20,458 bases of DNA from a virus, in IMG/VR virus record IMGVR_UViG_3300049491_000005, positions 1-20,458 of that record; one strand, 5' to 3'. Below the pieces are notes generated by a model. It ran no database searches and had not been told where the DNA came from. It saw only the letters and a list, made by a program, of their open reading frames with translations. This document shows, one piece after another, positions 11,508 to 19,143 of the stretch. The stretch's first letter is position 1. The number at the start of each line of letters is the position of its first letter. A program made the translations under genes and the position numbers.

Positions 11508-11701
11508 TATACTCCGTATGCAGCGGCGACTTCAGTTGGTGTCGCAATGCGAACACTACCCGATACGGCCTGCCACTCTGCTGCCTTTTCTGGTGTAAGG
11601 ATTGTATAGCCAATTTCCAGTCTGCCGAGAGGCCCAAAGTACAATGGATGGTCCGTATGTACGGCTACTGTATTGGGAACTTCTGCCTTTGCTTTTGCCA
11701 C
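11507..11701 (-). CDS. Small protein after capsid gene, unknown function
   Basis: This 64-residue protein starts at GTG 11701, behind AGGAGG at 11707-11712 and an extended -10 promoter. The sequence begins MAKAKAEVPNTVAVHTDH, has PLYFGPLGRLEIGYTILT in the middle and ends VRIATPTEVAAAYGV. Many actinophages encode a small protein at this place between capsid and adaptor. It could be a capsid accessory or part of the connector. No domain is recognised. It is the first gene of a coupled run of connector genes, as its stop overlaps the next start. Confidence 0.75.
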   Translation of the reverse strand: MAKAKAEVPNTVAVHTDHPLYFGPLGRLEIGYTILTPEKAAEWQAVSGSVRIATPTEVAAAYGV

Positions 11702-11782: not shown

Positions 11783-12784
11783 CTACTTGCGCCCGAAAGC
11801 GATAGCAGTAGCCTCTTCGATCTGAACTCCAAATCGAACGAACACTGTGTACTCCACTGTGTCCTTCTTTGGCTTGAACTCGCGGTGGACTGTCACGTCG
11901 CGCTGGAAACCCCAAATGCGGTTCTCGGGGAATGTAAGCGATACGTAGTCATCGGGGAAGTAAGGTACCTCAACGATGGGAAGTCCTAGAACGCGGTACT
12001 GCATTGGTGCGCCAACAACCTGTGGTACGCTGCCGTCTACAATGCGCTCAACAATCCTCTCAGATGAGAAGTTGCCTGTCTGTGCCAACTGGTTAAGTAG
12101 GCTAGACATTGTTGGTGAGCCTGTGTAGAACTTCATTGCACCACGCGATCCACGGAACTTACGTGGCATTGCAAGGATGATCTGCTGTAGGTCCTGAACT
12201 GTCCAAGTCGAACCAGACGACGCAACCGAGAGTGCCTCGTTGCCCGTCAGTTCCTTCTTGTGGAAACCGTCCATGATCTTCAGGAATGGATCACCTGTTG
12301 ATGCTGAGTTGCCATTGATAGCGAGATCCTCAAGGTCATTAGCGAATGCGCGAGTCATGGAACGGACCAAGTGATCCTCCAGACCTCCACCTTCGATGTT
12401 GTCCTCAAGTGCTTCAGTCGCAACCTCCCAGTCCAAACGGATCTTCTTGGTTGTGATTTCTACCTTTGTGAACTCTGCTCCTGCATTTGTGTAAGTGCCG
12501 TCAGCCTGATTTGCTGCGCGGATAACACGCTCGCCTACGTTCAACTTCTCCAGTTCAACAGTATTCGAACGCATAGTTACGCGACGACCATCTTGTGCTA
12601 GAACCTGCTGGTCCCAGATGTATTCGATGAACTGGCGTGATTGCTCAGGGTTGAGAATACCGCCGTCGTCTGTGGTTGAGCCGACAATACCAGCCGTACC
12701 ATGAACGGGATTGGTGATTCCACCAATACCACCGGATACGACTACGCCTGCCTCTGCTGACTTGCTTAGAATATCTTCTGACAT
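11783..12784 (-). CDS. Major capsid protein (HK97 fold)
   Basis: This 333-residue protein is the head shell subunit. The start is ATG 12784 with a perfect AGGAGGTGA 8 nt upstream; the longer frame to 12856 runs into the protease gene and has no such site. The N-terminus (MSEDILSKSAEAGVVVSGGI) is short. The mature part begins about NPEQSRQFIEYIWDQQVLAQ. Typical HK97-fold features follow: an E-loop-like segment with FTKVEITTKKIRLDWEVATE, the spine helix with SMTRAFANDLEDLAINGN, then beta sheets of the P and A domains, ending with FVRFGVQIEEATAIAFGRK. It lacks a long N-terminal delta domain, which fits a separate scaffold supplied by the protease gene. It is followed by its own hairpin. Confidence 0.93.
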   Translation of the reverse strand: MSEDILSKSAEAGVVVSGGIGGITNPVHGTAGIVGSTTDDGGILNPEQSRQFIEYIWDQQVLAQDGRRVTMRSNTVELEKLNVGERVIRAANQADGTYTNAGAEFTKVEITTKKIRLDWEVATEALEDNIEGGGLEDHLVRSMTRAFANDLEDLAINGNSASTGDPFLKIMDGFHKKELTGNEALSVASSGSTWTVQDLQQIILAMPRKFRGSRGAMKFYTGSPTMSSLLNQLAQTGNFSSERIVERIVDGSVPQVVGAPMQYRVLGLPIVEVPYFPDDYVSLTFPENRIWGFQRDVTVHREFKPKKDTVEYTVFVRFGVQIEEATAIAFGRK

Positions 12785-12804: not shown

Positions 12805-13350
12805 TTAGTGAGACTGCCGATATAGGTCGGCGGAATTGAGGAAACGCCCACCCCACTTCGACTTCTCGATTTTTTCTTCCTGACCGATCCCGCCAAGATC
12901 GCCAGACTTACGGAGAGCAGTGTCGGCTTCTACTTCATCGACACGCTTTCCAAACCCTTCTACCTCACTCTTTACAGAGGCTACCTCTTCAGTCATAGAC
13001 TTCTTGAGATTGGCTACCTCTTCTGCAAGGCTCTTCACCACTGAAACAAGACCACTAACTGCGTCTGCAACGGTACTATTCAGATCACTTACTGCTTTCG
13101 CCAAGTCCTCGTTGCCTTCTACAGGAGTAGTGGACTCATCAACAGCGTCAGCCTCAACTGCAACCTCTTCGACTACCTCGTCTACATCGGCTGCAACGGC
13201 TTCCTCGGCAACTTCCTCTGCTGCCTCTTCGACAGCCTCTTCGACTGCCTCTGTTGTATCTTCTGATGCCTCTTCAACAACCTCTTCCACTACCTCGTCT
13301 GCTGACTTGGTAATCTCTTCGGCTGGGGCATCCTTCTTGAAAATTCCCAC
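12805..13350 (-). CDS. Nested scaffolding protein from internal in-frame start
   Basis: This is an in-frame GTG at codon 266 of the protease gene, preceded by the strong site AGGAGGG with a 7-nt spacer (13364-13358). Translation from it would give a 181-residue protein (starting M/V-GIFKKDAPAEEITK) made of the acidic repeat, the coiled coil and the C-terminal tail only. The site stands exactly at the junction between protease/Cys region and scaffold region. This layout matches the known lambda C/Nu3 arrangement, where the scaffold is translated from within the protease gene. The strength and placement of the site make it credible. Expression itself is not shown by sequence. Confidence 0.7.
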   Translation of the reverse strand: MGIFKKDAPAEEITKSADEVVEEVVEEASEDTTEAVEEAVEEAAEEVAEEAVAADVDEVVEEVAVEADAVDESTTPVEGNEDLAKAVSDLNSTVADAVSGLVSVVKSLAEEVANLKKSMTEEVASVKSEVEGFGKRVDEVEADTALRKSGDLGGIGQEEKIEKSKWGGRFLNSADLYRQSH

Positions 13351-14145
13351 GTTATTTCCCTCCTTTTCATCGTTGTTATTAGCAATTGACTTGGCTATAC
13401 CGTCAATCGCTTCGTTATCAGATTGTTCACCTGAGCCTGTGTGGTTGTCAATGATGGACTGAATCGTTACCGACTTATCAACGTCATTGCTCTCTACAAA
13501 ACCAATGTTCACCATGCTCTTGTTGCATGATGGGCAATCATATGAAGTCTTTTCCGTAACGATGACAGGCTCGTCGGCTCCACACCAGAAAATGTTCTCA
13601 AGATAGTTCTTCTCAACAATGTCGTCACCGATCTTCTGGATGGACACGACATTGGAGTCGTCGTTCGCCGGGTTGTCAACGAGGCTAAGTTCATATAGGT
13701 TGTATTCCTTGATGAGGGTGGCAGGAGCATCGGCTGACTTGCTGTAGATGCTCTCCTTCTCAATGATATTGCCGCCTATGGAGAACCCGCTAAGGATTCC
13801 CTCATTCACCTTATGCCAAGTATCCTGTGCACCCTTGGAGATGTACACGTCAACGAAGATACCGTTGTGGAACTTGCCGGAAGCCTTGTCGAAATACGTA
13901 TCGCGCTTGAAGGCGACTACCTTTCCTACGGACAACGGAGTGTGCATCTCTCGGACGTTGCCACGGAACTTCTCAAAGGCTCGCTCAGAGGCATCGATAT
14001 CCACGATATCGCCCTGCTTGTCTAGGGAGTCGGTTGTCGCCCAACCGGAAACAATTCTGCGCTCTTGATCCACCTTCTGGATTGGCATGTTAATGGCGAT
14101 GTTGTCGCCACTGATGCTCCAAAAAGCCTTTTCAAATTCTGCCAT
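12805..14145 (-). CDS. Prohead protease fused to scaffolding domain
   Basis: This 446-residue protein cleaves scaffold and capsid precursors inside the prohead. The protease domain covers residues 1-170, with VSGWATTDSLDKQGDIVD, the catalytic His candidate H68 (REMHTP) and the Ser candidate S122 (GFSIGG) of the U35/HK97-type fold. Residues 185-215 hold a partial zinc-ribbon-like Cys set: C188, then DCPSC (C204, C207). Residues about 280-340 are an acidic Glu/Ala/Val repeat, and 350-415 a coiled coil (LNSTVADAV...LAEEVANLKKS). It ends with a basic/aromatic tail (KSKWGGRFLNSADLYRQSH), which may bind the capsid. ATG 14145 has no ribosome site and lies 9 nt from a -10 element. The order protease then capsid is usual. 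Confidence 0.9.
   Translation of the reverse strand: MAEFEKAFWSISGDNIAINMPIQKVDQERRIVSGWATTDSLDKQGDIVDIDASERAFEKFRGNVREMHTPLSVGKVVAFKRDTYFDKASGKFHNGIFVDVYISKGAQDTWHKVNEGILSGFSIGGNIIEKESIYSKSADAPATLIKEYNLYELSLVDNPANDDSNVVSIQKIGDDIVEKNYLENIFWCGADEPVIVTEKTSYDCPSCNKSMVNIGFVESNDVDKSVTIQSIIDNHTGSGEQSDNEAIDGIAKSIANNNDEKEGNNVGIFKKDAPAEEITKSADEVVEEVVEEASEDTTEAVEEAVEEAAEEVAEEAVAADVDEVVEEVAVEADAVDESTTPVEGNEDLAKAVSDLNSTVADAVSGLVSVVKSLAEEVANLKKSMTEEVASVKSEVEGFGKRVDEVEADTALRKSGDLGGIGQEEKIEKSKWGGRFLNSADLYRQSH
13140..13320 (-). repeat. Degenerate Glu/Ala/Val codon repeat in scaffold
   Basis: The coding strand is made of repeated GAAGAG/GAGGCN/GTN codons (plus-strand look: CCTCTTC, GCCTCTTCGAC). They encode runs such as EEVVEEASEDTTEAVEEAVE. 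It explains a long Ser/Thr-rich antisense reading frame on the plus strand. This sort of acidic tract is common in scaffolds. Confidence 0.7.
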
Positions 14146-14154
14146 TGTGATACC

Positions 14155-14160
14155 ATTATA
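14155..14160 (-). promoter_or_regulatory. -10 element close to protease start (near-leaderless transcript)
   Basis: A perfect TATAAT on the minus strand ends 9 bases before ATG 14145. With the usual 6-8 base distance from -10 to the first transcribed base, the mRNA leader would be only about 1-3 nt. No ribosome site precedes the ATG, which fits leaderless translation. No -35 was found. Confidence 0.5.
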
Positions 14161-14172
14161 TACTATGTTTAT

Positions 14173-14203
14173 GCGTAATGTTTATCAGATTGTTACATTA
14201 CGC
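14173..14203 (-). terminator. Hairpin overlapping portal stop codon
   Basis: GCGTAATG and CATTACGC (8 bp, perfect) surround a 15-nt loop. The portal stop TAA (14200-14198) lies within the first arm. There is no U tract, and the stem has four A-T pairs, so it may be a weak terminator, an mRNA end protector or an operator for the -10 element 13 bases downstream. Confidence 0.45.
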
Positions 14204-15763
14204 CTGTGTCCTACCCTCGCCCTTGGGATTTCTTCCCGTAGCGGTGGCAGTTGAGTCGGTAGAGTTGTTTGTTCGCTGCTGATCCCGTGCCCTAGAGCCT
14301 GATGCCTGAGCAGTCTGCTCGGCTCCCGTCTGTGCCTTGAGGTCTACTGGCTTGTCCCCACCGTCGCGCATAGGCAGTCGCATCTTGTCTCGTACCTCGT
14401 TGGGAACAATAACCTGCATACGCAAGTAGCGCTCATCGATCTGGCTCTGCGTGTTCTCATCGGTAAGTGACAGTTCGTTCAACTTGAACTTGAACATATC
14501 CGTCTGTTCCTTGATGATACGGGTGATGACCTTCTCAATATTCTTCTGAGTTGGTCGTGATACCTGCTCCTTGAATGTCCTGTCAGAGGCTAGGGCTGCT
14601 GCAACTCCTACCCCGGCTGCTCCACCAACCTTGGTGATGGGAACAGCATGTGCCATGAGGATATCGTCACGGTTAGCCTTGCGATACTTGTCGAATGATC
14701 CTTCCTGTACCCCGGCTTCCACGGGATTCATCTGGAAGTCCACCTTGTTGTCCTGACTGTCGCCGGGAAGGGGGATGTACAGCGTCCTGTGGTTCTGTCC
14801 CTTGAGACCAGTCTGCAAGAACCTGAACAGTTCTGACTCAGCCTGCTTGCTCAACTTGGCACCCTTAAGAGTAACGATGAAGCGTGGTACGGCCTTGTTC
14901 TCAAAGTAGTCTAGGTTGTACTTGCCAGCCAACTGGTCACCGACAACTGCTGCCGCTGCACTGACCATATCTGGTACGCCGTAGTAGGAGTTCTTTGGCG
15001 TGTACTTCTTGAGATGGATAATCTCATTGGGCCTGCCGTCTGCCGTGATGGGATTCGACTGGTTCTTGTCTTGGAAGTTGGTAAAGAAAACTACGTTCTG
15101 GTTGACTATCTGGACATAGCCATCACGCTTCCTGCGCACCCGGATTGTCGTTGCGGGGACGTGGCCCATGTAGCCAATCTCTCCCCGGTTGGTTCGCCCA
15201 ATCTCAATGTAGCCGTTGCCGACTGCATCGTAGTCAGTCATGACCTTTTCAAGGACGTGAGTAAAGGCATCTGTATCGTTCAGGCTCTCCAGCCAGTCTG
15301 TCAGAGCAATCTTCTGCCGTTCGATCCTGTTATGGGCCAGCCGCTTGGCATTGTCGGACGATGCGTTGTCAAGAGCATCAAGGACATTCTGGGTTACTTC
15401 GAAGCCGTAGCCGAGAGATACGCTGTTGGCTACCTTAGCATTGATCGCTGCGTGGTTGGCATATGACGAATCGTAGAACCCTGCTAGTTCGTCAAGGTTG
15501 TATGGAGGAAGCACTACGTCCAGCAGGCCATAGGCCGTGTTGAGTGCTGGGGTGGGAAGCAACTGCTTCGACTGAGCATCCTGAACACCCGAGTCTACCT
15601 TGGTGATCCGGGCCAGTCTGCGCTTGGTCTTGTCATTGAATCCATCGTAGAATCTGATAGTCTCTGCGTCTGCCGCGAAGTCGTCTATGACAGTCTTTTC
15701 GATGATGAGGTTTCTGTCTGTTCTAGCATAGACCTCTACGTCCTCTTGTTCTTCAGTCTCCAT
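14198..15763 (-). CDS. Portal protein
   Basis: This protein of about 521 residues would form the dodecameric DNA entry ring of the head. I chose ATG 15763 because AAGGGG lies about 10 nt upstream; a TTG at 15772, three codons earlier, is possible but sits almost on the ribosome site. Portal-type features include VLEKVMTDYDAVGNGYIEIG, followed by VPATTIRVRRKRDGYVQI, a PNEIIHLKKYTPKNSYYG block (typical of PBSX/HK97-like portals, GVPDMVSAAAAV after it), KYNLDYFENKAVPRFIVTL and a C-terminal helix-rich stem. The last 50 residues are low complexity (Gln/Ser/Thr/Arg). It overlaps the gene before by 11 bases. Confidence 0.92.
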   Translation of the reverse strand: METEEQEDVEVYARTDRNLIIEKTVIDDFAADAETIRFYDGFNDKTKRRLARITKVDSGVQDAQSKQLLPTPALNTAYGLLDVVLPPYNLDELAGFYDSSYANHAAINAKVANSVSLGYGFEVTQNVLDALDNASSDNAKRLAHNRIERQKIALTDWLESLNDTDAFTHVLEKVMTDYDAVGNGYIEIGRTNRGEIGYMGHVPATTIRVRRKRDGYVQIVNQNVVFFTNFQDKNQSNPITADGRPNEIIHLKKYTPKNSYYGVPDMVSAAAAVVGDQLAGKYNLDYFENKAVPRFIVTLKGAKLSKQAESELFRFLQTGLKGQNHRTLYIPLPGDSQDNKVDFQMNPVEAGVQEGSFDKYRKANRDDILMAHAVPITKVGGAAGVGVAAALASDRTFKEQVSRPTQKNIEKVITRIIKEQTDMFKFKLNELSLTDENTQSQIDERYLRMQVIVPNEVRDKMRLPMRDGGDKPVDLKAQTGAEQTAQASGSRARDQQRTNNSTDSTATATGRNPKGEGRTQA

Positions 15764-16094
15764 GAGCGTCAAGCCCCTTCTTCGCGTCTATGAACGCGCC
15801 AATATCTGTTTCGCTGGGGATGAGGCCCTGCGACATTCTATCCATCTGCTCCGAGTATTCCTCTTCTGTGATCCTTCGGACTCCCGGCCACCATACGGCT
15901 CGCCCCTCTGGATAGCCGTAGTGCACTGCTGCCTTGGTAATCTCCACGATACCCTGCAAGTCGCCTCGGCGTGCTGGGAAGTTGAGGATGTTGCCCTCAG
16001 ATCCAAGAACCTTGTTGTCCTTGGTGTACCAGACATACAGGCCGTGATCGGATTCCTTTTGGATGACAGTGAGTTTGGATTTTCCTTCTACCAT
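15753..16094 (-). CDS. Conserved-looking small protein upstream of portal, unknown
   Basis: This 113-residue protein begins MVEGKSKLTVIQKESDHGLY and has a beta-rich first half (YVWYTKDNKVLGSEGNILNF). Then come ITKAAVHYGYPEGRAVWWPG and a helical, acidic C-terminus (ITEEEYSEQMDRMSQGLIPS). It is the first gene of the portal transcript and overlaps the portal start, so the two are translationally coupled. The -10 element TACAAT ends only 6 bases before its ATG and no ribosome site is present, so translation would be leaderless. No family is recognised with certainty. A head or packaging accessory is possible from position. Confidence 0.75.
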   Translation of the reverse strand: MVEGKSKLTVIQKESDHGLYVWYTKDNKVLGSEGNILNFPARRGDLQGIVEITKAAVHYGYPEGRAVWWPGVRRITEEEYSEQMDRMSQGLIPSETDIGAFIDAKKGLDAHGD

Positions 16095-16100
16095 GGCCTA

Positions 16101-16109
16101 ATTGTACCA
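16101..16109 (-). promoter_or_regulatory. Extended -10 promoter giving a leaderless transcript
   Basis: The coding strand reads TGG then TACAAT (16106-16101), with the ATG at 16094. Six bases lie between the hexamer and ATG, so transcription should begin on or next to the A of ATG. Leaderless genes with this spacing are common in actinobacteria. It sits after the RNR terminator. Confidence 0.6.
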
Positions 16110-18540: not shown

Positions 18541-18569
18541 TTGACAACGCCTTTTTTATGTGTTACCCT
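18541..18569 (+). promoter_or_regulatory. Promoter of the transglycosylase-like gene
   Basis: A perfect -35 TTGACA (18541-18546), a 17-base spacer and TACCCT (18564-18569), which keeps the key T-A....T bases of a -10. The expected start lies near 18576, giving a leader of about 22 bases that includes the GGAGG ribosome site. Confidence 0.65.
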
Positions 18570-18597
18570 TGTCAGATGTTGTCGCTATGGAGGTAAC

Positions 18598-19143
18598 ATG
18601 ACGAAAACAAACCTAATAAGAGTAATACTAGCAGTCCTCATGGTAGTTGGACTGTCAAGCGGCTCTCAGGCGGCTTATGCTAAGTCGGCTAGCAATATAG
18701 CGCAAAGCACCGCAGCGGTGGCATTCATTGCACCGCCGCAAAAGATAGTAGCAGGACCACCTTTGGTGAAGGTAGAGCAGAAGGCACAGCCCTTTCGCAA
18801 CCCGAACAATCGGTGGATGGATTCAGGCGCTTTTACGGTCTGGGTTGGTGTCCCTAGGTGGATACGCGATCTGGGTCTATGTATCAGGAAGCACGAATCA
18901 ATCATGGCTGGCCATTACAAGGCCCATAATGGGTCTAGTTCTGCGGCAGGAGCCTATCAGATGTTGACGGGTACTTGGCAAGGTAACGCAAAATGGACAA
19001 AGGTGAACGGAAGGTTTGTTGCGCGACAGTATGCAGCGGCTAACCACGCACCACCATGGATTCAGGATGCTGTGTTCATTCACAGTATTAAGAACGGCGG
19101 TGTCCTCAATTGGGTTGGAACCCATTGTGGATACGGAACCTGA
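18598..19143 (+). CDS. Secreted transglycosylase-like (Rpf/lysozyme-fold) protein
   Basis: This 181-residue protein probably acts on peptidoglycan outside the membrane. ATG 18598 follows GGAGGTAAC; the reading frame extends to a GTG/TTG-type start at 18541, but that lies on the -35. An N-terminal signal peptide is clear: MTKTNLIR, a hydrophobic core VILAVLMVVGL, and a likely cleavage after SQAAYA (about residue 28). Residues 30-90 are a Pro/Ala-rich linker. The catalytic domain (about 90-181) has CIRKHES with Glu100 as the candidate acid, then SSSAAGAYQMLTGTW, typical of the actinobacterial transglycosylase-like family, and WIQDAVF near the end. C95 and C177 could form a disulfide. It is monocistronic with its own promoter and terminator, unlike the late genes; a lysis or cell-wall remodelling role is inferred. 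Confidence 0.85.
   Translation: MTKTNLIRVILAVLMVVGLSSGSQAAYAKSASNIAQSTAAVAFIAPPQKIVAGPPLVKVEQKAQPFRNPNNRWMDSGAFTVWVGVPRWIRDLGLCIRKHESIMAGHYKAHNGSSSAAGAYQMLTGTWQGNAKWTKVNGRFVARQYAAANHAPPWIQDAVFIHSIKNGGVLNWVGTHCGYGT

Follow-up and report, generated by a model that had tools for sequence, protein, structure and literature searches.

A head-gene cluster and its protease

The window analysed here is a stretch of 20,458 nt covering positions 1 to 20,458 of the IMG/VR virus record IMGVR_UViG_3300049491_000005. Genes for a portal protein, a head maturation protease and a major capsid protein lie consecutively on its minus strand (Table 1). The interval between portal and protease (14146..14197) holds a membrane protein gene in the Streptomyces relatives, and this gene is missing in the window and in the phages Weasels2 and Francesca. 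On the opposite strand, 18541..19143 (+) encodes a predicted secreted protein with transglycosylase-like sequence, near the position of the LysM endolysin of phage Wakanda. An antisense ORF, 12920..13462 (+), was set aside as a by-product of repetitive Glu/Ala codons.

Table 1. Features of the protease and capsid genes, in window coordinates.
Feature	Position	Strand	Remarks
Full-length gene, head maturation protease fused to predicted scaffold	12805..14145	-	446 aa; ATG without Shine-Dalgarno; phrog_9427, PF04586
Promoter-like element TAAACA-N18-TATAAT	14155..14184	-	Position conserved in relatives
Protease domain, residues about 21-172	13630..14085	-	T4 gp21/herpesvirus assemblin fold; invariant His68 and Ser122
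Cys region C188, C204, C207	13525..13584	-	Zinc-ribbon-like; absent from some relatives
Internal Shine-Dalgarno AGGAGGG	13358..13364	-	
Internal start codon GTG	13348..13350	-	Codon 266
Nested frame of the predicted scaffold, including stop	12805..13350	-	181 aa, 19.2 kDa, pI 4.1
Long helix of the predicted scaffold, residues 346-416	12898..13110	-	Coiled-coil type
TALRKSGD block	12898..12921	-	T409, A410, K413, S414 and D416 invariant; possible processing site
C-terminal tail WGGRFL	12838..12855	-	W431, G433, F435 and L436 invariant; candidate capsid-binding tail
Major capsid protein	11783..12784	-	Strong Shine-Dalgarno of its own (-14.6 kcal/mol); no long N-terminal delta domain

The window protease matches PF04586 with 29.8 bits (curated cut-off 21) and phrog_9427 with an E value of 5.7e-107. 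A sequence search of solved structures with the protease returned no significant match, and Foldseek with the whole model returned none with E below 0.001. Structure comparison of the trimmed model placed it with T4 gp21 (Z 11.2), the VZV protease (Z 11.2) and the HCMV protease (Z about 9); overall, the protease domain scored Z 8-11 against T4 gp21 and the herpesvirus proteases, and unrelated rows fell below 6. The AlphaFold model, built from 38 sequences, shows a folded region at residues 1-236, disorder at 239-344 and a long helix at 346-416. His68 and Ser122 are invariant in 38 sequences and are the putative active-site residues. Judged by its modelled fold, the window protein is a head maturation protease of the S78/assemblin type. 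The HK97-type prohead proteases, HK97 gp4 among them, form family S78.

Inside this gene, the minus strand reads ...GATGAAAAGGAGGGAAATAACGTGGGAATTTTC..., in which AGGAGGG is followed, after a 7-nt spacer, by a GTG in frame with the 446-aa ORF; a protein begun there would have the N-terminus M/V-GIFKKDAP. The anti-Shine-Dalgarno duplex energy at this site is -12.3 kcal/mol, compared with only -2.9 at the ORF's own ATG and -4.8 at the next best internal in-frame start of the gene. The site outranks every other internal in-frame start in the window and is on par with true gene starts such as those at 11701 (-12.2) and of the capsid gene (-14.6). A sequence-only reading of this DNA had proposed a strong internal start for a nested scaffold, placed exactly between the protease/Cys region and the scaffold region, in a gene whose annotated start has no ribosome site. 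The motif, its spacing and its position at codon 266 proved exact, it is indeed the strongest ribosome site in the gene, and the modelled domain boundaries put it where that reading had it. By itself, however, the window sequence is suggestive and not decisive, because 52% of synonymous recodings that keep the same amino acids (Lys-Glu-Gly) match the strength of the site and GTG makes up 21% of Val codons; on these chance estimates, the internal start is just moderately unlikely.

Conservation of the internal start

Relatives were drawn from GenBank phages (Streptomyces Stanwilliamsviridae and Rhodococcus phages), IMG/VR and genome bins. A close-relative search of IMG/VR with the single window protein as query found no match; with an alignment as query, it returned 597. 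The final sample comprises 99 genes with 78 distinct junctions between the protease and scaffold parts. Only frames reaching the junction were counted, and four loci whose contig ends before it (L074, L077, L055 and L057) were left out. The Vibrio phage D260 homologue, at 206 aa and without a scaffold part, is uninformative on the site.

The strongest ribosome site falls at the same protease/scaffold boundary in all 78 distinct junctions, and at 76 of them it reaches -11 kcal/mol or lower; Francesca has a weaker one (-8.9 kcal/mol). Start codons at the junction are ATG in 41 cases, GTG in 35 and TTG in 2, with a GGAGG-to-start spacing of 7-10 in 77/78. Whereas every junction carries a Shine-Dalgarno hexamer, accompanied in 77 of the 78 by an in-frame start at the proper distance, the rest of the same genes (102 kb) contains 50 such hexamers, one of them with an in-frame start; start codons amount to 3.1% of codons. 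As a further control, long ORFs elsewhere in these loci show a comparable site at 4 of 2003 internal in-frame starts. The mean duplex energy at the junction is -13.2 kcal/mol, against -7.9 for synonymous recodings. The residue after the internal start is A, S, T or G in 64/78, compared with 30% after other M/V residues, and the site is less structured than the gene's other codons (0.60 vs 0.43 unpaired). Two more genes from genome bins also carry the internal site. A relative with this site lies on a 110-kb contig (CAINGU010000031.1) that was assigned to a cyanobacterial bin and is possibly a misbinned phage.

These relatives share ancestry, and 78 junctions are not 78 independent events. The evidence for selection on the RNA lies in the changes of register and start codon rather than in the counts. 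Codons spell the Shine-Dalgarno in either of two registers, AAG GAG Gnn (48 junctions) and GAA GGA GGn (30), hence with different amino acids, and the first residue of the nested frame varies among Met, Val and Leu through ATG, GTG and TTG only. This pattern points to selection acting at the junction on RNA rather than on protein. The sequence-only reading had named coding kept with the site lost as the outcome that would count against it; we found the opposite, a conserved site within protein sequence that is not conserved around it.

One environmental contig, L030 (IMGVR_UViG_3300018080_001125), has a TAG at codon 303 (L030:3907-3909), upstream of the internal site. Downstream of this stop, the scaffold frame is intact and both the Shine-Dalgarno and the GTG are kept. 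The almost identical L029 has no stop, and the one in L030 may either be genuine, splitting the gene, or stem from an error in sequencing. Both contigs, together with L032, L074 and L077, also carry a Hva1_TUDOR-type insert between the Cys region and the internal start (a PF11160 match in L029, by sequence likeness in the others); the insert is always on the protease side of the start.

The start of the full-length protein

The full-length frame begins differently. In the window, the protease ATG is preceded at 9 nt by a TATAAT box (14160..14155), which the sequence-only reading had missed and which has TAAACA a further 18 nt upstream. Among 70 distinct upstream regions, 90% have a -10 box at -17 to -11 of the protease ATG, as against 22% of shuffled sequences (maximum 33%); over the same interval, the figure is 7% before the capsid gene and 0% before the internal start. 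The distance of the box from the ATG is fixed, at -15 in 47/67 and at -12 in 7/67. A -35 element is poor in most of these upstream regions; that of Rhodococcus phage Weasels2 reads TTGACA-N17-TATACT. The association between -10 boxes and missing ribosome sites also holds across 50 kb of each of two genomes, with boxes at 7/18 genes without a Shine-Dalgarno vs 0/35 with one in Wakanda (Fisher p 2e-4), and at 8/18 vs 0/44 in Weasels2 (Fisher p 1e-5).

TA boxes about 10-12 bp upstream of the start mark leaderless genes, which are common in Actinobacteria (PMC3160421), and the protease start, which lacks a Shine-Dalgarno and has a TANNNT box some 12 nt before it, shows the features of this class. 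With the box at -15, the predicted leader is about 2-4 nt long, not zero. Because a conserved TATAAT box adjoins a protease ATG that has no ribosome site, leaderless translation is indicated: the mRNA for the long form probably has no leader or almost none, with the short form led by a Shine-Dalgarno. Such an mRNA most likely accounts for the lack of a ribosome site at the protease start. Ahead of the portal, a small gene, 16094..15753 (-), may be leaderless too, as a TACAAT (window 16101..16106, -12) adjoins its SD-less ATG; its Wakanda counterpart, gp19, has the same box and also an SD-less start.

Alternatively, translation of the protease could be coupled to that of the upstream gene, with TATAAT acting as a promoter for the scaffold and capsid genes only. 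Coupling could serve in several Streptomyces relatives, in which there is a 4-nt overlap between the upstream stop and the protease start. However, the portal stop lies 52 nt from the protease start in the window and 46 nt in Weasels2, the fixed distance between box and ATG would be needless in a promoter serving distant genes, and the boxes in Wakanda and Weasels2 are confined to genes without a Shine-Dalgarno. We therefore regard coupling as unlikely.

A protease and a probable nested scaffold from one frame

If the internal start is used, what would its product do? The nested protein is acidic and helical, modelled by AlphaFold on its own with a helix at residues 80-151, and ends in the invariant blocks TA..KS.D and W.G.FL. 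The first of these, TA.(R/K)KS.D, adjoins the C-terminal tail and could be a maturation cleavage site. The N-terminal extension of the capsid protein is short, with no long delta domain (the N-terminus of the window protein has an extra Gly-rich stretch that is not in the Streptomyces relatives). No other scaffold gene was found between the protease and capsid genes in the window or in annotated relatives, and the annotations of the latter list none there. Since the capsid protein has no delta domain and no gene intervenes, the C-terminal part of the protease gene is the sole scaffold candidate at this place, and the nested 181-aa product is likely the scaffold. A sequence search of solved structures with this part gave generic coiled-coil matches only and no known scaffold, and the product might be made and serve otherwise, for example as an internal head protein. 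Its position between the protease and the capsid gene with no rival candidate, its acidic helical build and its invariant tail make such a role very unlikely.

Collectively, our data are best explained by one frame that encodes two co-C-terminal proteins, an S78/assemblin-type protease-scaffold fusion and the 181-aa scaffold alone, and we put the probability of this reading at about 0.92. It draws direct support from the sequence, its conservation, the RNA-level constraint, the modelled protease fold and the positional -10 box, which together uphold the nested scaffold of the sequence-only reading. From these we infer that both proteins are produced, with the free scaffold in excess over the fusion. 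The 446-aa protein would be a head maturation protease with a scaffold domain as its tail, its ATG most likely read from a leaderless or near-leaderless mRNA whose promoter adjoins it. The second, SD-led start at GTG 13350..13348 would yield the 181-aa scaffold, with its acidic part, long helix and conserved tail, which would co-assemble with the capsid protein. Through the common scaffold part, the fusion would bring a few copies of the protease into the procapsid, where the protease would afterwards cleave the scaffold.

The scaffold could instead arise solely by proteolysis of the full-length protein, as in phage P2 gpO; P2 has one gene for protease and scaffold (PMC8508860). Such an origin, with AGGAGGG only a pause site for elongation at the domain boundary or a by-product of acidic and Gly-rich coding, fits its place at the start of the modelled disordered linker and the ease with which Lys-Glu-Gly codons spell it, yet is extremely unlikely given the in-frame start at the right distance in 77/78 genes, the restriction to ATG, GTG and TTG, the two codon registers and the frame and site kept past the stop in L030.

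Nested protease/scaffold arrangements are already known from lambda, Mu and herpesviruses, and an in-frame internal start with a ribosome site and a common C-terminus is what the window gene shares with those of the lambda and Mu kind. The sequence-only reading had drawn the parallel with lambda Nu3. The mechanism is comparable, in that an in-frame internal start within the protease gene gives the scaffold, but the enzyme is of another type: lambda C is an S49 peptidase (PF01343), and the window protein matches PF04586 and falls outside the S49 family. In lambda gene C itself, the strongest internal Shine-Dalgarno lies at codon 309 (-10.8 kcal/mol), and the GenBank start of Nu3 is codon 239. 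Mu I/Z likewise has a nested, SD-led scaffold start and a weak Shine-Dalgarno at the full-length start (-1.9); Mu I differs in family (PF10123) and in its weaker internal site (-7.4). T4 gp21 has the same protease fold, and T4 encodes its scaffold by a separate gene. HK97 carries a delta domain in its capsid protein (PMC8508860); unlike in either phage, the predicted scaffold is here fused to the protease. For the Mu-like Pseudomonas phage PaMx73, a similar internal start was assigned by its authors at Val177 (PMC4378225).

Alongside lambda C/Nu3 and Mu I/Z, the closest layout is that of herpesvirus UL26/UL26.5 (HCMV UL80a/UL80.5), closer than lambda because the protease is of the S78/assemblin and not the S49 type. 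There too, a protease of the same fold stands N-terminal to the scaffold, and a shorter, in-frame, co-C-terminal scaffold with a conserved C-terminal tail is made separately. The herpesvirus nested scaffold is expressed from a separate intragenic promoter as a transcript of its own (PMC4498786, PMC7920273), in contrast to the phage internal start, which has no -10 box at -17 to -11 (0/70) and is led by a Shine-Dalgarno instead. Likewise, the protease start resembles the leaderless TA-led genes of Actinobacteria (PMC3160421) in its TATAAT-type box about 12-15 nt before an SD-less start, but differs from ordinary genes of this kind in that the box would drive the longer of two nested products, the shorter being SD-led.

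An open-access literature search found no report of an internal start in the Streptomyces/Rhodococcus phage group, nor did we find a nested start annotated there; the protein family, how widely the start is conserved and the leaderless partner start all appear to be new to the literature searched. For a widespread group of actinobacterial phages, represented by more than 100 GenBank records and by environmental contigs in the hundreds, the finding assigns a precise predicted N-terminus to a scaffold that has gone unannotated, and it places the herpesvirus protease-scaffold layout, with a protease of the same fold, in a phage. A further prediction is that one gene combines a leaderless start with a nested, SD-led one, which makes viral control of the protease-to-scaffold ratio directly testable in culturable Streptomyces phages. 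We see even odds that these two modes of initiation set the protease-to-scaffold ratio, the fusion being made only from the leaderless mRNA and read-through mRNA from upstream, in which the protease ATG would be buried, giving scaffold and capsid protein only. If so, the ratio would be governed by which promoter is used and by how the ribosome initiates.
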